Virus record (IMG/VR): IMGVR_UViG_3300044977_000063
Coordinates: 1 to 20,478 of that record
Direction: 5' to 3' (one strand)
From: a virus
DNA: 20,478 bases
The notes beneath the pieces are model-generated. The model ran no database searches. It saw only the letters and a program-made list of their open reading frames with translations, and was not told the DNA's origin. This document shows positions 655 to 19,966 of the stretch, one piece after another. The translations under genes were made by a program, and so were the position numbers. Position 1 is the first letter of the stretch. Every line of letters begins with the position of its first letter.

Positions 655-1136
655 TACTCACCCCACCATCCGGAGAAGTACCTATCCACCTCCACCAGAC
701 CCTGCAGCTCGAAGAACCGGCCGCAGTCCTTGTGCACCTTGGAGCCGTAGAATGGCCGCTTCACGCCCCGGCGTACAGCCTCGGTCTTCACCGTCGCGAA
801 GAGCAGCTCCGCGAGCATGTCCTCCTCGAGCTGGCTTAACGAGTCGGTCGCCCGGTATTCCGGGTGGATCCAGAAGATGTCCATCGTGAGCGTAAGGCAC
901 GTCATGTAGTGCATGCCCGGGGCGATGAACCCCACGAAGTAGGCGACCACGGCTCCTCGCTCGCGCGCCACCACGCACAGCACCTCCCCTGCCGCCTCGC
1001 GCTGCAGGTACAGCGGATAGTTCGGGCAGAGAGGCACCTTGTCCTGATTCAACGCAAGCTCGCGCCAGTGCGGGTCGAAGAGCGGCTCTAGCTCCTCGAG
1101 GCACCGGTGCAGCTCCTCGACCGCGACGGTGATCAT
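654..1136 (-). CDS. GNAT-like acetyltransferase, 160 aa
   Basis: ATG at 1136 overlaps the previous TGA (ATGA), and the stop forms TAATG with the next gene. Residues 48-95 have the strand order of GNAT folds: EAAGEVLCVVARERGAVVAY (48-67), then VGFIAPG and MTCLTLTMDIFWIHPEYRAT (78-97). A helix follows, LSQLEEDMLAELLFATVKTE (100-119). The usual acetyl-CoA loop (Q/R-x-x-G-x-G/A) is not clear, with RATDSLSQL in its place, so activity is uncertain. Some podoviruses carry GNAT-like proteins near their internal virion genes. A catalytic enzyme or a degenerate structural relative are both possible. Confidence 0.65.
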   Translation of the reverse strand: MITVAVEELHRCLEELEPLFDPHWRELALNQDKVPLCPNYPLYLQREAAGEVLCVVARERGAVVAYFVGFIAPGMHYMTCLTLTMDIFWIHPEYRATDSLSQLEEDMLAELLFATVKTEAVRRGVKRPFYGSKVHKDCGRFFELQGLVEVDRYFSGWWGE

Positions 1137-1747
1137 GGCGTCTCGATCCCCTGCTCAGGGTCCGGCGGGGTCTGCGCGGTCGCGGCCTTGAAGTGCAGGT
1201 GCTGGCATCGAATGTCGATGATCAGATGGATTCGGTCGCTCGCCGAGTTGTTGACCACCTCGTGCTCGAGCTCGTTCTGGAACCACCAAAGCTCCCCCGT
1301 CCCCATGCTCACCGTCTCCTCCCCGCAGCGAAACAGCACCCCGGGGGTGGAGGAGACGACGTAGTGAAACCGGTCCCAGTACTGGGCGTGCACCGGGGTG
1401 TCGGCGTGCGGGTAGATCCGCCCACCCGGCACGATCTTGTTCAGCATAACCCGGCCGATGCGCTCGCCCGCGACCTGGGCCATCAGGGCGAACACCAGCG
1501 GGCGCGCGGCGGGCAGGTGCAGCCACCCGTCCATCCACACGCACTCGTGCTGGTCCTTCTGCGATCGCTCAAGCTCGGTGACGCTCGCGGGGGGGAAGCG
1601 CAGGAACACGGTCTCCACGTCCTTGAAGGGCCCTTGCGGGTAGTCCCGAAGGTAGGTGTCCTCCCGCCACAGGTGCGGCTGGCGCATCAGCTCCATCATC
1701 AGCGGGGTCATGTTCAGGCCCGCCCCCAGGCGAAAGAAGTTCTTCAT
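1133..1747 (-). CDS. Aspartyl/asparaginyl beta-hydroxylase-like 2-oxoglutarate oxygenase
   Basis: This family uses Fe(II), 2-oxoglutarate and oxygen to hydroxylate protein side chains. Iron ligands are visible in the order H114-A-D116 (RIYPHADTPVH) and H162 (ELEHEVVNN). The 2-oxoglutarate-binding Arg is likely R172 in DRIHLIIDIR. The surrounding WDRFHYVVSSTPGVLFRCGE and GTGELWWFQNELEHEVVNNS are diagnostic of this fold. ATG 1747 is chosen because it overlaps the previous stop (ATGA); a GTG at 1804 would add 19 codons of no known domain. The product of 204 residues is a minimal single domain. The substrate is unknown. Its position among tail genes hints at a virion protein target. Confidence 0.88.
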   Translation of the reverse strand: MKNFFRLGAGLNMTPLMMELMRQPHLWREDTYLRDYPQGPFKDVETVFLRFPPASVTELERSQKDQHECVWMDGWLHLPAARPLVFALMAQVAGERIGRVMLNKIVPGGRIYPHADTPVHAQYWDRFHYVVSSTPGVLFRCGEETVSMGTGELWWFQNELEHEVVNNSASDRIHLIIDIRCQHLHFKAATAQTPPDPEQGIETP

Positions 1748-2016
1748 ACCGGTGCACCGCTCGCGTTCACCCACACAGGCGAGCTCCCGGGGGTCTTCAG
1801 CCACACAGGGATCCCAAGGGTCGTATCAAAGTAGGGCATCCCGACAAACTGCCCCGCCGTGGGCCTGCTCGTGGTCGGCCCCGAGGAGCTCGCGGCGGTG
1901 AGGATACGCTGGGCGGTGGAGAACCACCCGGCCCACTCGCTCGTGAACTTGACGATGGCATTCCCCAACGTCACAAACATCGGCGGCTGCGGGAGGCCTC
2001 CCAGGGGTGATGCCAT
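1744..2016 (-). CDS. Small virion-tip or head-fibre-type protein, 90 aa
   Basis: ATG at 2016 shares a base with the gp10-like TGA (TGATG). The protein has a helix (NAIVKFTSEWAGWFSTAQRI), then a C-terminal beta module with SSGPTTSRPTAGQFVGMPYF, DTTLGIPVWLK and WVNASGAPV. The pattern P-T-S-RP----G--YFDTTLG-P-W---WV-A-G is seen at the ends of many phage fibre and capsid-tip proteins. It may make a small trimeric spike. A longer open frame running to 2715 exists only by reading through the gp10-like gene in another phase and is not supported. The stop overlaps the next gene's ATG (ATGA). Confidence 0.75.
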   Translation of the reverse strand: MASPLGGLPQPPMFVTLGNAIVKFTSEWAGWFSTAQRILTAASSSGPTTSRPTAGQFVGMPYFDTTLGIPVWLKTPGSSPVWVNASGAPV

Positions 2017-3509
2017 CAGCGGCTCCCTGCGGGTCGGCCGGCGCGCATCGAGGTCATCATCGCCCCGGAGGTGATGACGAAGGGCACAGGATCGGTCATC
2101 CGGATCTTGAGGTTCCCCTGCTTCATGCGGCCCCAGCGCCGGCTGTTCACGCGCGTCCAGTACTGCCCCAAGGCTCCTAGCGGGAAGTAGCGGGCGACCC
2201 CGAAGTCCCGGCCGTCCCGGGCGATCGAGAGGGCCACTTGCGGGTAGTATCCCTGCAGCCCTGGTGTGGAAAGACCCACGCCGGTTTGCATGTCGAGGTA
2301 GATCTGGCTTGCCCGGAAGGTGTTGAAGTCCTCGAGCGCGCACGGCGTCACGACCTCGCGCACGATCACATTGCCGTTGTCGGTGAAGACGGTTGGATCC
2401 GGGGTGTAAAGGTTCCCGTTGCTGTAGTCGGACAGGTAAGGCTGCCCATAAGCCTGGGCGCCCAAGTTCGCCAAGTGCCGCGCGGCGTAGCCTTGTGTGA
2501 TCCCGGATTGCACCTCGCTCCACAGGCCCGTGGTCGTATCGAGCAGCAGCGAGCGGTTCGCCGTGGGGAAGTTGAACTGCGCGAAGTGATGCGAGTCGAT
2601 CTGGTAGGACAGGCAGGTGCAGTCGGTGATGATGCTGGTGCGAGCCATCGTCTGCAGGATGTTGTCGATGTCGGGGGTGGAGACCACATCCACCGCGTAG
2701 CCTTTGATCCGGCACACCTGAAACGACCCCGAGGAGCCCTGGAAGCTGCCGCCGCCCGTGTGGGCGAGAAAGAGCAGCGAGTCCCCGACGTGCACCCGGC
2801 CGTACACGGCCTCGAGCCCGTACATCGTGGCGGAGTTCGCGATGTAGACGAAGGGCTCCGGGGTGGAGCCCTGGTTCTGCCAGAACTCCACATGCCCGCT
2901 TGAGAAGACGATCAGGATGCCGCCCAGCTGATCGACCGCCATCACCCCGTCGATCGACTGGACCGCGGTGAAGAAGGACAGCCCGCTCCAGGTGGTGCCA
3001 TCGTTCAGGTTTGAGACAAAGACCTCATTCGTCCCTGGGAGCTCGCAGATGAAGAACCCGTTGCAGTAGGCGATCGTGCGCGCGCCGTTCGGGAAGGACC
3101 CGCCCACCACCGTCTCGGTGAAGCCTGTCATGGTGATGACGTAGCCGGCCTGACCGTCCACCACCATGAGCTGCGTGGGGTTCAAGGCCATGCCGACCAG
3201 GCCCGTGCTCGTGCCGATTGCGGCCGAGGCCAGTACCGCCCCCGACTGGCTCAGCGACTGCACGAGGTTCCCGGAGGTCGTGTAGAAGGCCGAGTCGTTG
3301 CCCACCATGCCGCGCATCGGCTGGTTCTGAGGGGTGGAGGCGTTGAAGAGGAACCGCAAGCCCGGGGTGCCGTAGCACACGATCGAGGATTTGTCCTGAT
3401 CCTTGCGTGGCTCGAGGTAGCAGTTCAGGCGCCGCTGGCGGGTTACCACCGGGCTTTTGGAGAAGATCCCCTCCCCGAAGAGCTTGATCTTTTTGAGCCT
3501 GGCGGTCAT
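2016..3509 (-). CDS. P22 gp10-like packaged DNA stabilisation / tail hub protein
   Basis: This type of protein forms a hexameric plug below the adaptor. The 497-residue product is close to P22 gp10 (about 470). It has the family's start (MTARLKKIKLFGEGIFSKSP, then RQRRLNCYLEPRKD) and CYGTPGLRFLF at about 44-55. It is rich in repeated beta-propeller-like blades, such as AVDQLGGILIVFSSGHVEFW and GRVHVGDSLLFLAHTGGGSF. The end of the chain includes WTRVNSRRWGRMKQGNLKIR. No signal peptide or membrane segment is present. Its TGA overlaps the ATG of the next gene by one base. Confidence 0.88.
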   Translation of the reverse strand: MTARLKKIKLFGEGIFSKSPVVTRQRRLNCYLEPRKDQDKSSIVCYGTPGLRFLFNASTPQNQPMRGMVGNDSAFYTTSGNLVQSLSQSGAVLASAAIGTSTGLVGMALNPTQLMVVDGQAGYVITMTGFTETVVGGSFPNGARTIAYCNGFFICELPGTNEVFVSNLNDGTTWSGLSFFTAVQSIDGVMAVDQLGGILIVFSSGHVEFWQNQGSTPEPFVYIANSATMYGLEAVYGRVHVGDSLLFLAHTGGGSFQGSSGSFQVCRIKGYAVDVVSTPDIDNILQTMARTSIITDCTCLSYQIDSHHFAQFNFPTANRSLLLDTTTGLWSEVQSGITQGYAARHLANLGAQAYGQPYLSDYSNGNLYTPDPTVFTDNGNVIVREVVTPCALEDFNTFRASQIYLDMQTGVGLSTPGLQGYYPQVALSIARDGRDFGVARYFPLGALGQYWTRVNSRRWGRMKQGNLKIRMTDPVPFVITSGAMMTSMRAGRPAGSR

Positions 3510-4576
3510 GGGCCGTACGGGTCATCCCCGTCGACGACGAAGTAGGCGGCCGACTGCTCAGGGTCGCCCTGCTGTGCGATGGCGATCGCGCTCTTGCGCA
3601 GCTCCTCAAGGTCCGTGGTCCATGCGCAGTCGAACATCGGCGCGCCGCGCTTGGCGAGCTCCAAGGTGAGCGGGTCGTACCACTGCTGCGGGTAGTCCGG
3701 CGCATCCCCCGGGTTCAGGAAGTCCTCGGTCGGGGCGAGGAAGACCAGGTGCAGGTGCTTGGTCACATCCTGAGCGCCGCCCACATCCAGGTACAGCCGT
3801 CCGGTCGGGGTCTGGCTCTTGAACTGGCTTTCGTAGAACACTGCCGTCGGGTCCGCGACGTTCGACGGGGCGGTCTTCGTGGGCAGCGCTTCGTACTCCT
3901 CGACCGTGGTGAAGATCCTCAACGGGGTGTCGTTGGCGTAAATGTCCCGCAACGTCGCGGTGATGAGCGCGAGGGGCCGCACGGCCTTGTTGGTGTAGTT
4001 CCACACGTAGGTCGCAGCAGAGCCCGTCACGGCACTCGGCAGGCCAGGGGCGGGGATCGTGACCGTGCCCACCCCAATCGCGCTGATCGTGGTCCAGAAG
4101 ATCGTCCCGCTGATCAGAATCCCGATGTAGTCCAGGATATTGAGCTGGCTCGTGTTTGCGACCGGGATCACCGTAGTGCCGGCCACCACGCTCGCTGAGA
4201 CGTTGGTCTGGCCGTACTTGTTCGGGTAGGAGAGGCCGGTGGTGGACTCGATCCAGTTGTCCGGGCTCGTTTGACCTAGCCCGTAGACATACTGGGTGGG
4301 CGACATGAAAAGCTCGCCGCGTTTTCGGGTCCACACCTTCAGGCCCGGAGCGAAGTCGGTGTTGCCCATCCACTGCTTGGTGATCATGTTCAGGAGACGC
4401 GCCATGTCGCTTGTCTCCTGGGCCGTGGGAACTTCAGCCTCCTGCAGCGCCCCCATGTCCAACATCGCCTGACGGATGATCTGGTCGCGCGTGACCGAGA
4501 AGTTGTAATACGCGCCGGAGGTGCTCGGCTGGTTCGCCGGCAACGAGAGCATCCCGCCGATGTTGAGTGCGGTCAC
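3506..4576 (-). CDS. P22 gp4-like head-to-tail adaptor (tail accessory protein)
   Basis: Adaptor proteins of this type close the portal after packaging and seat the tail. The 356-residue product starts at GTG 4576. VTRDQIIRQAMLDMGALQEA at 28-47 plus ETSDMARLLNMITKQWMGNT at 54-73 is the helical signature of gp4-type proteins. The C-terminal helices include DPLTLELAKRGAPMFDCAWT. P22 gp4 is about 166 residues. The extra length comes largely from a beta-rich insert at about 125-185 (VVAGTTVIPVANTSQLNILD and onward). The stop overlaps the gp10-like start (ATGA). The Trp/Tyr-rich middle suits contact with the portal. The adaptor assignment is firm in kind, less so in detail. Confidence 0.85.
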   Translation of the reverse strand: MTALNIGGMLSLPANQPSTSGAYYNFSVTRDQIIRQAMLDMGALQEAEVPTAQETSDMARLLNMITKQWMGNTDFAPGLKVWTRKRGELFMSPTQYVYGLGQTSPDNWIESTTGLSYPNKYGQTNVSASVVAGTTVIPVANTSQLNILDYIGILISGTIFWTTISAIGVGTVTIPAPGLPSAVTGSAATYVWNYTNKAVRPLALITATLRDIYANDTPLRIFTTVEEYEALPTKTAPSNVADPTAVFYESQFKSQTPTGRLYLDVGGAQDVTKHLHLVFLAPTEDFLNPGDAPDYPQQWYDPLTLELAKRGAPMFDCAWTTDLEELRKSAIAIAQQGDPEQSAAYFVVDGDDPYGP

Positions 4577-4582
4577 TTCCCG

Positions 4583-6262
4583 TTACGCCTTCATCACCAG
4601 CTGGGTCGGTTGGGTGGAGGCGATCGCGCGGCGGATGAGGTCCCAGGCCGCCTCCCCGTCAATGTCCGCCTGGCACTGCGCGGTGCCGGCCTGGGGGTGG
4701 CCTTCCTCGGTGAACTGTTTGCAGAACTCCCAGTTGTAGTGCATCTGGTGGCAGGCGGGCGCCTCGTTGTCCCCGCGGCCCGGGCAGGTGGTTTTGAGGC
4801 TTGCGATGCTAGTGGTGTTCACCCAGTCCCGGGTCAGGTTCTCGTGGGTGCTGTGCGAGAGGAAGACCACCTTCGGGCAGTTGAGCGAGGAGCCGGCGTT
4901 CATGACGCCCGTCTCGGGGCCGACCATCACATCCACGTATTCGAGGAGGCTCATCGTCTCCCTGATCGAGTACTTGCCCGAGCGGCACTTCACCCGCGGC
5001 TCGTGCTCCCACCCGGCCTCGAGGATCGCCGCATCAGGGCCGCCAACCAGCACCACGTGGGAGAGCGGGAACTCCGTCAGGATGCTCGCGATCGTACGGT
5101 CGAGGCCTCCCCAGGTCTTGTGGACGCTGGATCCGGTCAGCGCCCACAGCACGAGCGGTGTGCCGCCGAGCTTCACGCGCTCCTTTTTCGCCCAGTCCTG
5201 CTCGGAAGGGGTGGCATAGAAGCGCACCCGCGGGTTGTGCGGGACGCCGGCGATCGCGTGCTGCATCTCCACGTAGTTGTGGTTCATGTAGCGGTGCCGG
5301 GCGAGGGGCGACCAGGTGTGGGGCGTGCGCCCCGGGATCGACAGCATCGTCACTTCCACCGACTCGGATAGGTTCACCCACTTGTCGTACTTCGCCGCCT
5401 CGTACTTCCAGAACTCCCCGAGCAGGTGGTTCGGGATCTGATCCTTGTCCTGCAAGTAGAAGTGGTCGATGTTCGGGTCGAACTCGATCACCTCATTACC
5501 GGGCGGGGAGGTGTATAGCGTCACGTGGTAGCCCTGCTCTTTTAAGCCCGCGGCGACGCTTGAGAGCTGCAGCAGATCCCCGAAGGCCCCGTACCGCACC
5601 ACCCCACAGGTCTTGGCGGGCTTCAGCCGCTTGGCGTGGCTGAAGTGCTGGCCGGAGCCGGTCTTGCGGAACACGAAAAAGAGCGAGTACTCGTTGCCCC
5701 CGTTGCGCTTCTGATAATCGACCAGGTCCCAGGCGCACCCGGTCGCCTTCATGAGGTCAACGATCACCTCGTAGTTGCAGTTGAAGCAGTGATCGGCGTT
5801 CGCGCCCTCCTCGCCCACCTTCGGGTACTCATCCTCGTCCGGGACGTAGAGCACCAGGTACCCATCGCGCTTGAGCACCCGCATCCACTCCTTCAAGGCT
5901 TGCCCTGCGGTGTGGCTCTCAAGCAGCTGCCGCTCGGCGAGCGCGCGCGCCATGGGGTTTGACCACTTGCGCGGGTCATCCTCCTGCAGCGGGAAGTGCT
6001 CGAGCAGGTGGCTTGCGAACACGAAGTCCATCGACCCTGAGGCGAACATCGGCAGGTCCGCCGCGGTCTTGCAGCGCACGTCCGGGCAGATCGGGTGCCC
6101 GAAAAGCGTACCGTCCTTGCCGTTGTCGACCCCGATGAAGTGCGGGTAGGTCTTCTGCAGGCCCTGGCCTAAATCCAGGCCCCGCCCGCGCGTCCACGGC
6201 ACGATCTCCCACTTGATCTTGCCGCTCTCGTTGCCCTGCGGCGCGTTGATATCCCAGGTCAT
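4583..6262 (-). CDS. Fusion of SAM methyltransferase and glycosyltransferase family 9-like domain
   Basis: ATG at 6262 is preferred: AGGGGAGA lies a few bases upstream. The open frame reaches 6322, but the extra 20 codons would overlap the TylF-like gene and carry no domain. The product is 559 residues. Residues 1-200 are a class I methyltransferase of the type 11 kind: GRGLDLGQGLQKTYPHFIGV at 26-45, PMFASGSMDFVFASHLLEHF at 71-90, KEWMRVLKRDGYLVLYVPDE at 124-143. Residues 218-500 resemble heptosyltransferases of family GT9: RYGAFGDLLQLSSVAAGLKE at 223-242, HVVLVGGPDAAIL and the donor-site VGPETGVMNAGSSLNCPKVV at 447-466. The C-terminal 60 residues are Cys/His-rich (about C493, C504, H505, C514, C530). 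The glycan product and acceptor are unknown; the virion or host surface are options. Confidence 0.88.
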   Translation of the reverse strand: MTWDINAPQGNESGKIKWEIVPWTRGRGLDLGQGLQKTYPHFIGVDNGKDGTLFGHPICPDVRCKTAADLPMFASGSMDFVFASHLLEHFPLQEDDPRKWSNPMARALAERQLLESHTAGQALKEWMRVLKRDGYLVLYVPDEDEYPKVGEEGANADHCFNCNYEVIVDLMKATGCAWDLVDYQKRNGGNEYSLFFVFRKTGSGQHFSHAKRLKPAKTCGVVRYGAFGDLLQLSSVAAGLKEQGYHVTLYTSPPGNEVIEFDPNIDHFYLQDKDQIPNHLLGEFWKYEAAKYDKWVNLSESVEVTMLSIPGRTPHTWSPLARHRYMNHNYVEMQHAIAGVPHNPRVRFYATPSEQDWAKKERVKLGGTPLVLWALTGSSVHKTWGGLDRTIASILTEFPLSHVVLVGGPDAAILEAGWEHEPRVKCRSGKYSIRETMSLLEYVDVMVGPETGVMNAGSSLNCPKVVFLSHSTHENLTRDWVNTTSIASLKTTCPGRGDNEAPACHQMHYNWEFCKQFTEEGHPQAGTAQCQADIDGEAAWDLIRRAIASTQPTQLVMKA

Positions 6263-6275
6263 GGTGTCTCCCCTG

Positions 6276-6806
6276 TCAAAATTGTATGTAGAGTTTCTCG
6301 GCCCGGATGAGCGGCCGGCCACTCGCCTCGCAGTACTCGCGTACCGCGGTGCCGGCGCTGTTCAGGCAGTCCGCATCATCACACCAGATGACCCCGCCTT
6401 TCACCATGCGCGAGTGCAGGTACCACAGCGCATCCCGGTAGCTTCGGTACTGATCGCAGTCCAGGTGCACGAAGCCGACCGGGCCCATCTCGATCGCACT
6501 GGAGGGGAAGACCCCGGGGATGCACAGCCCGTAAGGCACGACCGCCTGGACCTCCTCCACGCTCGTGTCGGAGAAGTCCCCGACCTGGTGCGCATCGATC
6601 GAGTCATCCCGGTAGGGGATCCCGGTGAAGGTGTCGTAGAGGTACAAGGGGCGCATCTGCTCGGCCGCGGCGCGGGCCAGGAACCAGGCGGTGCCGCCGT
6701 GGTAGACCCCGACCTCGACAAAGCAGCCTCTGGGCGTGCCCTGGGCGAGCCTGCACATCGCCTGGGCGACGATGGGGTCGACCAGGGAGTGCGGTCGCTC
6801 CCCCAT
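6276..6806 (-). CDS. TylF/macrocin O-methyltransferase-like SAM methyltransferase
   Basis: This family methylates sugar hydroxyls using S-adenosylmethionine and a divalent metal. The 176-residue product has motif I CFVEVGVYHGGTAWFLA at 28-44. LYLYDTFTGIP (54-64) and GDFSDTSVEEV (76-86) are typical of TylF. The metal-site candidate VHLDCDQYRSYRDAL is at 113-127 and GGVIWCDDAD at 137-146. It is shorter than the usual ~250 residues because the N-terminal lid is reduced. The start at ATG 6806 is backed by AGGAGAA. It directly precedes the methyltransferase-glycosyltransferase fusion, so both probably act on the same glycan. The substrate is not visible from sequence. Confidence 0.85.
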   Translation of the reverse strand: MGERPHSLVDPIVAQAMCRLAQGTPRGCFVEVGVYHGGTAWFLARAAAEQMRPLYLYDTFTGIPYRDDSIDAHQVGDFSDTSVEEVQAVVPYGLCIPGVFPSSAIEMGPVGFVHLDCDQYRSYRDALWYLHSRMVKGGVIWCDDADCLNSAGTAVREYCEASGRPLIRAEKLYIQF

Positions 6807-15475: not shown

Positions 15476-16096
15476 TTACTGCCCGGCGACTTCGATCCAC
15501 ACGCCCATGGTCGGATCGTTGCCCGAGGCCCACTTCTGCTCGAGCTTGCCGGCGGTGAAGCGCAGGTCCGTGGTCTTCGCGTACCCTGGAGGTGGGCTAT
15601 TGGCCGCGACTTTGTGAGCGGCCTGAGGGGCCGGAGCGGGTGCAGGGGCCGGGCGCAGCGCTGTCTCGGGACCTGTCGCGCGGTCCATGACGGCGGCCGG
15701 AGCGGGCGCGGGGGCTGGTGCAGGGGCGGGAGCGGGTTTGGCGGGTGCCATGAGATCTCTCCTGGGTTCTATCGGGTGATCAGGCCCGCCACGGTATACC
15801 GCAGGGCTGAGCGGGGCGCCATCCCCGGCACTCGACCAGGCCCCGCCCTGCAGGTAGCCATGGAACGCACACCCTCCGATCCGACGGATGCTCGGGCCCA
15901 GGGTCGGCTGGGCCTTGTTCCCATCCCACGTCCAGTTGTGCTCGGTCTTCGGCACGCCAGGCCCGGTGATCGGCAGCCAAATCCCGTGGCCGCAGCCGCA
16001 CGGACAGTTCGCCTCAACCGCGAACCTCGAGACCCCGCCGTCGACCACGTACTCGCTGACGTTGTAGTAGCCGGGCGGCTGGGTCTCGATGTCCAT
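15476..16096 (-). CDS. DUF6527-like protein with Pro-Ala linker and extra C-terminal domain, 206 aa
   Basis: Residues 30-82 carry a Cys-rich start (ANCPCGCGHGIWLPI), then HNWTWDGN, QPTLGPSI and GGCAFHGYLQGG. This is the pattern of DUF6527-type phage proteins, with four clustered Cys/His positions that could bind a metal. After residue 116 the sequence changes sharply to two Pro-Ala runs (118-135 and 149-158), then a short domain (TTDLRFTAGKLEQKWASGND, ending VWIEVAGQ). Met116 (ATG at 15751) has its own strong AGGAGAG site five bases upstream, so the C-terminal 91 residues may be made as a separate protein. The full frame may be a natural fusion, a lost stop codon, or a frameshift near 15770-15860. 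I list the whole open frame as one gene. Confidence 0.65.
   Translation of the reverse strand: MDIETQPPGYYNVSEYVVDGGVSRFAVEANCPCGCGHGIWLPITGPGVPKTEHNWTWDGNKAQPTLGPSIRRIGGCAFHGYLQGGAWSSAGDGAPLSPAVYRGGPDHPIEPRRDLMAPAKPAPAPAPAPAPAPAAVMDRATGPETALRPAPAPAPAPQAAHKVAANSPPPGYAKTTDLRFTAGKLEQKWASGNDPTMGVWIEVAGQ
15623..15745 (-). repeat. Pro-Ala dipeptide-coding repeats
   Basis: Two imprecise stretches of CCX-GCX codons encode about seven and five PA units, separated by AVMDRATGPETALR. They look like a flexible linker and are prone to length change. Confidence 0.8.
15749..15763 (-). promoter_or_regulatory. Internal ribosome binding site and ATG
   Basis: On the minus strand AGGAGAG is followed by five bases and ATG (15751-15749), inside the DUF6527-like frame and in phase with it. 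It is stronger than the signal at the gene's own start (16096). It would yield a 91-residue protein starting MAPAKPAPAP. Confidence 0.6.
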
Positions 16097-18604: not shown

Positions 18605-19124
18605 CCGGGCCTCCGTGGATCACCTCGAAGGGCTTGCCAGGCGGGGTCGAGAGTTCCGTGGCCTTGAAGTCGCGCCAGCGGTCCTTCCGGCGGTTCTTCA
18701 GCCAGAAGATCAGGGAGGTAGGGTGCGGGGGCTGGTGCTTCACGACCGGTGCCCGGATGACCTCCTTGGTGCGCGTGGTGACGATCGTCGGACGGTCTTC
18801 GGGCTTCTCGCCTGGGACCTTTTTCTCGGTCACCACATCGACCAGGAACAGCTCCTCGGAGTCGTAGCTGTAGCCGGTGGCACTGCGAAAGAGCGAGCGC
18901 TCGGCCCGATCGTCCGCGACGCCTTTGGCCGGCTTTATGGCCCTGAGAAACTCTTTGTGCGTCCGACACCACAACTCCACCGCTCCGATCGAGACCTTCA
19001 GTGCTTGGGCGATCTCCATGTCCGTGGCGCCGAGCTTCGCCATTGCGCGCACCACGGGCAGCATGCGCTCCGGGTCGTACTTGGGAGGCCGGCCGCCTTT
19101 GCCCTTACTTCGAGGCGAGGGCAT
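18438..19124 (-). CDS. terS: Terminase small subunit
   Basis: The small terminase recognises phage DNA and hands it to the large subunit for packaging. The 228-residue product begins with a basic stretch (SPRSKGKGGRPPKYDPE) followed by a helix-turn-helix-like region at about 20-60 (MLPVVRAMAKLGATDMEIAQ and the segment after it). Residues 95-150 form a mixed region with FWLKNRRKDRWRD, a motif common in phage small terminases. From about 190 the sequence becomes Gly/Pro/Asp-rich (GADPGADPGVDPG) and low in complexity. That tail is read from the same DNA as the first 55 codons of the large subunit. Identification rests on the helix-turn-helix, the W-KNR-K-RW motif and the position directly upstream of terL. 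No strong ribosome binding site is seen, so coupling to the overlapping methylase gene is likely. Confidence 0.85.
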   Translation of the reverse strand: MPSPRSKGKGGRPPKYDPERMLPVVRAMAKLGATDMEIAQALKVSIGAVELWCRTHKEFLRAIKPAKGVADDRAERSLFRSATGYSYDSEELFLVDVVTEKKVPGEKPEDRPTIVTTRTKEVIRAPVVKHQPPHPTSLIFWLKNRRKDRWRDFKATELSTPPGKPFEVIHGGPGEPELIGQYYERLRRSGKPSAPGGALGADPGADPGVDPGGQEPQGQGGSPTPGKG

Positions 19125-19966
19125 CGCGGCAGTGTCGGTTCAACCAGATGCTTTCGGTCCGCGGGACCGATCCCTGGTTGCCGCTGCCGCTGGTGTCATG
19201 GGCCTTGCGCTCCCAGCCCTCCAGCGCGTCCCGATATAGCGGGGAGTCGTAGCCGCTTAGGATGACCATGCCCTTGAGGTTCTGCAGGCAGCTCACCAGT
19301 TGCAGGTGTTCCCAGTCGCTCATCTCGTGCCGGTAGTACCGGTGGATGTGCTTGGAGGCGCGGTCGCGCGTACTGTGCACGTAGGGCGGATCGACGTAGT
19401 GCAGGGTGCCGGGCCCGTCGTGGTGGAGCATCACATCCACCGCGGGGCGATTCTCGATCAGAACACCCTCGAAACGGATGCCGCAAGCACTCAGGGTATC
19501 CGGCAGTCTCGACCACAGGTGCACGTCTTTTCTCGACATGCGAAAACCGTTGGTGGACTTCTGAGCGACCGCCGGGCCGTACCCCATCCACGATCGGATG
19601 GCGACCCGAGCGGCTCGCTCGATCGGATCATCTGTGACCTCGTAAGCCTGGTCGAACTCGGCACGCGCGAAAGGCGTGAGAGCCATGCGCTCGAGAAGCC
19701 GGGCCCGAGCGATCGGCTCGCGCAGGACGCGAAAGAACGTGACCACGTCCCCGTCCAGGTCGTTGTACACCTCGTGAGAGCTGCGAGACTTACGCAGTAG
19801 CACACCAGCCCCCCCCCCCGTAGGGCTCAACGTAGCTTTCGTGGGCAGGCATGTGCTCGAGGATCCAGGTCGCAAGGCGAAACTTGCCGCCGTGGTAGCG
19901 CAGCGCGGGCCGATCGGCGGCTTCACGGCGTTCGGCGGGACCGCAGGCCTCGGCAAGGTCGTTCAC
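19105..19966 (-). pseudogene. DNA adenine methylase (D12 class, Dam-like), frameshifted at an 11-G run
   Basis: Members of this family transfer a methyl group from S-adenosylmethionine to adenine N6. The gene starts at GTG 19966. Its first 49 codons give the family N-terminus, with RYHGGKF (residues 23-29) and YVEPY (45-49). A run of 11 G (minus strand, 19819-19809) then replaces the 10 needed to read PYGGGAGVLLRK, so the frame is lost. Read literally, the product stops after 58 residues at 19790. With one G removed the protein is 286 residues, with motif I YVEPYGGGAG at 45-54, catalytic DPPY at about 192-195 and a C-terminal ESIWLN. Both parts look intact apart from this one base. Causes could be a sequencing error in a homopolymer, phase variation or real decay. 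The open frame that begins at 19956 is out of phase for its first ~45 residues, so its apparent N-terminus is not real. It overlaps the small terminase gene by 20 bases. Confidence 0.85.
19809..19819 (-). repeat. Homopolymer run of 11 G (11 C on the plus strand)
   Basis: Eleven identical bases fall exactly at the codons for the glycine-rich SAM-binding motif of the methylase. Ten would keep the frame; eleven break it. Runs of this length are prone to slippage in vivo and to sequencing error. Confidence 0.95.

Follow-up and report, generated by a model that had tools for sequence, protein, structure and literature searches.

A methyltransferase and a GT9-type glycosyltransferase in one chain, kept between the capsid and adaptor genes of an uncultured phage clade: a probable virion-modification enzyme

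Why should a phage carry, among the genes that build its head, a single protein with a methyltransferase at one end and a relative of lipopolysaccharide glycosyltransferases at the other? The gene in question lies on the minus strand at 4583..6262 of the window, the whole stretch of 20,478 nucleotides analysed here, which is the complete IMG/VR record of the phage (IMGVR_UViG_3300044977_000063). An initial annotation proposed that both domains share one frame of 559 residues within a structural operon, and that the phage may use them to add a sugar and methylate it, either on its own virion or on the host surface.

The open reading frame is a genuine gene, far above chance. It runs from an ATG at 6262 to 4583, stop codon included, with a ribosome-binding-like GGGGAG directly ahead of the ATG, and both flanking genes abut it. 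The GC content at codon positions 1, 2 and 3 (0.605, 0.425 and 0.911) fits a coding frame in GC-rich DNA, and the plus-strand counterpart of the frame is interrupted by stops. Full-length homologues share 77, 75, 71 and 58% identity with the window protein. Searches with tblastn gave no match among 50,697 phage records and, among plasmids, nothing beyond one short methyltransferase match, while phmmer gave no match among PDB sequences. The third-position GC of 0.91 also opens long antisense frames through most genes of the window, including one at 4583-6322; these are by-products of composition and not genes.

The N-terminal half (5648..6262, minus strand; approximately residues 1-205) is a class I SAM-dependent methyltransferase, as judged by fold and motif. 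The Pfam model Methyltransf_11 matches the window protein with 33.3 bits against a cut-off of 21.2 (E = 7.5e-8) and recognizes all 89 family members tested. The stretch GRGLDLGQG, to which attention had first been drawn, corresponds to residues 26-34 and includes SAM-binding motif I, GLDLGQG (6161..6181, minus strand; residues 28-34), identified from sequence and conservation: D30 is present in 86 of 89 sequences, and G32, G34 and D46 in all of them. In the nearest relatives the motif reads G-C-G, the window copy having Q for C. The acceptor of the methyl group would presumably be a sugar.

The C-terminal half (4616..5611, minus strand; approximately residues 218-549) has a GT-B fold according to Foldseek, family-wide models and alignment with WaaF. 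Taken alone, the window protein scores below the Pfam cut-off for GT9 (PF01075; 18.7 versus 22 bits, E = 0.0012), so the assignment rests on family and structure. PF01075 is matched by 39 of 89 relatives at E≤0.01 (best 2.6e-10) and the heptosyltransferase I model by 38 of 89, and TIGR02193/02195/02201 match part of the family. An AlphaFold model built on the 89 sequences recovers both folds in one chain with a pLDDT of 93.6 and a pTM of 0.89; with 6 sequences the pLDDT was only 66. Foldseek matches this model to a Veillonella GT9 protein (3tov, 3.2e-14) and E. coli WaaF (1psw, 6.3e-14), as well as to WaaC, to TibC (1.5e-7) and to SAM methyltransferase structures. Aligning the profile with that of E. 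coli WaaF covers the domain at E = 4e-4 (hhalign probability 35%); comparison with WaaC yields the donor-motif stretch alone, non-significantly. Family, model and Foldseek together confirm the C-terminal half as a GT9-type GT-B glycosyltransferase of predicted activity. Pfam, family-wide matches, model and structural neighbours thus agree on the two domains in one chain, and the kinship with GT9 suggested by the initial annotation is borne out.

Do the residues expected of such an enzyme survive alignment? Within GAFGD (5576..5590, minus strand; residues 225-229), D229 pairs with the catalytic-base position of WaaF and is conserved in 89 of 89 sequences. GSSVHK (5117..5134, minus strand; residues 377-382) supplies K382, which pairs with the donor-binding lysine of WaaF; G377, S378 and K382 are each present in all 89. 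The second stretch singled out at the start, VGPETGVMNAG (residues 447-457), contains the donor motif GPETGVMN (4898..4921, minus strand; residues 448-455), which replaces DSGLMH of WaaF, with E450 conserved in 89 of 89, T451 and G452 in 88, and N455 in 87. The donor-site residues are therefore present, and D229, K382 and E450 are invariant. The motif D-[ST]-G-x-x-H is absent, the family having ETGxxN throughout; one host GT9 enzyme also has N at the last place. Because this departure from the host D and H is consistent, we use the label GT9-type and make no claim that the donor is ADP-heptose.

The chain ends in a knuckle of four cysteines (C493, C504, C514 and C530; 4673..4786, minus strand) that are invariant in 89 of 89 sequences. 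The Cys/His-rich end that had caught the eye is thus real, but it is the ordinary end of a GT9 enzyme, since ends of the form C-x2-C...C...C are also found in cellular GT9 enzymes such as the WaaF-like proteins of hosts. For the same reason we dropped it as a special feature, or as a mark of protein glycosyltransferases of the TibC type.

The setting of the gene is, as had been supposed, a structural operon. All genes discussed lie on the minus strand, beginning with a D12-type DNA adenine methyltransferase (19105-19956, domain match), terminase genes, small genes, the portal gene and a scaffold-like protein; a DUF6527 protein (15476-16096; PF20137, 3.9e-13) is encoded between the terminase and portal genes. 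The major capsid protein follows (9818..10807; phrog_1357, 1e-15), the upstream anchor of the conserved block, and then two decoration-like genes (8580-9074 and 9084-9728), four small genes, a TylF-type O-methyltransferase (6276..6806; PF05711, 1e-14) and the fusion. Directly downstream of the fusion come a putative head-tail adaptor (3506..4576; phrog_12985), head closure Hc3 (2016..3509; phrog_578, 5.7e-68), a small protein, an Asp_Arg_Hydrox-family dioxygenase (1133..1753; PF05118, 3.4e-14), a weakly acetyltransferase-like protein (654-1136) and a DNA-ejection protein. The names small terminase, scaffold and decoration were assigned by position and appearance.

Several of these neighbours could be involved in modification. 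The TylF gene, which puts two methyltransferases side by side, is a possible helper with homologues at 30 of the 141 distinct GT9 loci described below. The dioxygenase and the acetyltransferase-like protein, possible further modifiers of the virion, sit as a pair between head closure and ejection protein and are kept in 21 and 22 of the 141 loci, respectively. The decoration-like proteins contain 23% Ser+Thr and are candidate acceptors by composition and position only; we rejected them as obligate partners of the enzyme, since several enzyme-bearing loci have no recognizable copy.

Is this arrangement peculiar to one record? The search for the same fusion in other phages found many: a profile of the GT9 half gave at least 437 viral matches, the best 80 of which were taken further. 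Among the loci collected at that stage there were 138 fused copies longer than 480 residues, 105 of them distinct. A scan of 84,980 bacterial and archaeal genomes provided 10 loci, all beside capsid genes. Across the 141 distinct GT9 proteins, the capsid gene lies upstream of the GT9 gene at 112 loci and downstream at none, while the adaptor or closure gene lies downstream at 106 and upstream at none, with a median gap of 3 bp. Because these loci had been collected with the enzyme itself as bait, we redid the survey from the capsid gene. This yielded 69 new viral loci, whose capsid proteins are at least 77% identical to the query and so represent the near lineage only. The fusion is present in 25 of the 25 loci that extend to the adaptor or closure gene; of the remainder, 5 contain the fusion, 2 contain the methyltransferase half before the contig ends, and 37 stop within 7 kb. 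The fusion is kept in every close relative readable to the adaptor, and the phages that carry it form a large uncultured clade.

Two of the loci from bacterial genomes lie in long isolate contigs of Betaproteobacteria and appear prophage-like. In Aromatoleum anaerobium LuFRes1 the locus is on a 716-kb contig with a tyrosine integrase ∼38 kb away. In Paraburkholderia rhynchosiae WSM 3937 helicase, terminase and portal genes separate the locus from an integrase that precedes it by ∼37 kb; these flanking genes were named from reading their translations. An integrase was found in one of five viral records tested.

The interval between the decoration-like genes and the fusion is a hot spot for surface proteins. 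Large Gly/Ser/Thr-rich fibre-like genes occupy it in L213 (5620-7800), L222 (5375-8161) and L004 (7255-8436), and three of the 37 short capsid-anchored loci (5.2-6.4 kb) have large fibre-like genes between capsid and adaptor positions. Additional glycan enzymes are limited to a minority of loci: GT2 genes in L048, L049, L050, L052, L053, L073 and L118, a GT4 gene in L146 with a homologue in L133, and in L258 a glycosyltransferase-like gene (weak, 0.002) with a methyltransferase, at which point the contig stops. The cassette of L146 (4269-11539), just before the fusion, comprises the GT4 enzyme, a 631-residue protein, a GFO/IDH/MocA oxidoreductase and a hexapeptide acyltransferase, and resembles a nucleotide-sugar biosynthesis cluster placed within a phage head operon. 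A batch scan of interval genes gave one sulfotransferase match that was not assigned to a gene; an L053 gene that resembled a sulfotransferase scored only to a PHROG 'hydrolase'.

If the two halves serve a common end, they should remain together even when they are no longer fused. The 141 distinct GT9 proteins comprise 130 fusions, 7 split cases with a methyltransferase nearby, and 4 with none in the available sequence. The main split group (L034, L067, L074 and L077) forms a clade (100/99) in a maximum-likelihood tree built from 101 rows of the GT9 half, and lies there within clades that contain fused relatives, a nesting that suggests the splitting of a fused gene. Where its loci offer enough sequence, the methyltransferase lies 0.4-2.4 kb upstream of the GT9 gene; in L110 and L114 the separate genes are adjacent or overlapping. 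The initial annotation had looked to split homologues with unrelated functions as evidence against its proposal; those that we found keep their partner close. This enduring partnership is the strongest evidence that both activities serve one product.

Two arrangements in the tree stand apart. L114 (8985-11556) encodes GT9, methyltransferase and GT9 in three overlapping or abutting genes, and its two GT9 copies are distant from each other. L006 (4202-5275) and L166 (2431-3486, on a 3.8-kb contig binned as Phycisphaerae) have a GT9 gene without a methyltransferase beside the capsid gene and form a joint clade (100/100), so that GT9 may predate the fusion, or a methyltransferase may have been lost.

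What, then, is modified? We have two folds with invariant active-site residues, stably paired and fixed in place between capsid and adaptor genes. We consider it probable (roughly 0.6) that the protein is a bifunctional virion-modification enzyme produced with the head proteins. It would be synthesized late, together with those proteins; the GT9 half would take a sugar from a host nucleotide-sugar donor and attach it to a surface protein of the virion, or to a sugar that this protein already carries, after which the methyltransferase half would methylate the added sugar. The decoration-like proteins would be the first acceptors to consider, and the likely benefit would be a capsid that is shielded, stabilized or kept from sticking to wrong surfaces. 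Of the two targets originally proposed, the virion is better supported than the host surface, because of the fixed place in the head module (also in prophages), the lack of a strong membrane segment and the glycan enzymes co-located in some relatives.

Several observations count against this reading. The window capsid protein shares ∼50% identity with its counterparts in Escherichia phage PTXU04 and in Vibrio podoviruses. Both PTXU04 and Vibrio phage 219E41.1 share the order capsid, small genes, adaptor and closure with the window, but in relatives of this type neither annotation (of the two) nor profiles revealed a methyltransferase or GT9 gene in the capsid-adaptor interval. A head with a related capsid can therefore be built without the enzyme. 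The donor motif, with E for D and N for H, sets the enzyme apart from WaaF and WaaC. Also on this side of the balance are the restriction of the additional glycan enzymes to a minority of loci and the enzyme-bearing loci that have no recognizable decoration-like gene.

How far can the nature of the modification be specified? TibC, of the BAHT family, is an example of a GT9-like enzyme that glycosylates a protein directly (PMC4358343), and the fusion has in common with it the GT9-like catalytic domain, the four-cysteine knuckle (metal-binding in TibC) and an S/T-x3-K spacing. However, TibC acts on autotransporters, and its architecture includes a beta-barrel at the N-terminus and a beta-hairpin thumb (PMC4358343), whereas the fusion has an N-terminal methyltransferase, and its neighbours are phage head genes with no autotransporter substrate beside it. 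The iron finger of BAHT enzymes may have its counterpart in the four invariant cysteines, a motif that resembles one in ordinary host GT9 enzymes. We offer only tentatively, at well under even odds, the proposal that phages across the clade use the fusion as a protein glycosyltransferase of the GT9/TibC kind, which would attach an activated sugar, a heptose or similar, directly to Ser/Thr of a capsid decoration protein and cap it with a methyl group by the same chain. If this is true, a whole lineage of phages infecting Proteobacteria would wear a coat of methyl-capped glycans.

GT9 enzymes mainly build the lipopolysaccharide core, and the enzyme might instead place a methylated sugar on lipopolysaccharide or another surface glycan of the host, and so shut out superinfecting rivals or prevent progeny from re-adsorbing to debris. 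The TIGR matches of part of the family agree with this, as do GT2 genes beside the fusion in some relatives that score weakly to GtrB-like O-antigen conversion enzymes. We nevertheless regard it as unlikely: the fusion is fixed within the head module and not with lysogeny genes, the hydrophobicity of the window protein reveals no strong membrane segment, and it is present in all 25 readable close relatives, more than one would expect if the trait were host-specific. We recognized none of the features of a Gtr-type seroconversion module, neither a flippase nor membrane-bound glycosyltransferases, among the window proteins scanned.

The constant junction with the adaptor gene and the universal presence among close relatives could also mean that the two folds have taken on a structural or chaperone role in the neck, with vestigial catalysis. 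This is highly improbable, since in neither half do the catalytic residues vary across the 89 sequences, the gene can split with 0.4-2.4 kb between its halves, and relatives with a related capsid lack it. Least probable of all is glycosylation of a modified base of the phage DNA by the GT9 half, as the gene lies in the head block and not the replication block, no base-hydroxylating or hydroxymethylating gene was recognized within the window, and GT9 is not known as a family of DNA glycosyltransferases. In its favour are the D12 adenine methyltransferase gene and the precedent of phage glycosyltransferases that hypermodify DNA, as cited in PMC12619734.

A bifunctional virion-modification enzyme is thus the reading that we carry into a comparison with known systems. 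The fusion resembles WaaF and WaaC in its GT-B fold, catalytic-base Asp, donor Lys and the TG of the donor motif, and host WaaF-like proteins in its four-cysteine end, but differs from WaaF and WaaC in the fused methyltransferase, in ETGxxN versus D[ST]GxxH, and in lying in a phage head operon rather than a lipopolysaccharide operon. Closer in genome organization are the cluster O mycobacteriophages (Corndog-type), in which the virion structural operon likewise includes genes of both kinds, in their case an O-methyltransferase and glycosyltransferases between the portal and protease genes (PMC4351075). According to Freeman et al. 2023, as cited in PMC11600133, that cassette modifies capsid and tail tube. 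Documented cases of virion glycosylation by enzymes of the phage itself come from a few mycobacteriophages.

If the capsid is indeed modified, a large and overlooked lineage of phages would regularly carry methylated glycans on its capsids, which would affect stability, adsorption and recognition, and the prophages in cultured environmental bacteria make the idea directly testable. The literature searched, which mostly excluded subscription papers, gave no description of a methyltransferase-GT9 fusion. Virion glycosylation with a methyltransferase is known in phages, and what appears to be new is the single chain, the GT9 type, the link of the lineage to Proteobacteria and the fact that no readable close relative lacks the fusion. 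In the cluster O phages, which are siphoviruses of Mycobacterium, the enzymes are encoded separately, between portal and protease, and are reported to modify the virion; the family described here has one GT9-type chain between capsid and adaptor in podovirus-like, Proteobacteria-linked phages, whose virion glycans are a prediction. On present evidence, the fusion may best be read as a GT9-based counterpart of the O-methyltransferase/glycosyltransferase cassettes of mycobacteriophages.
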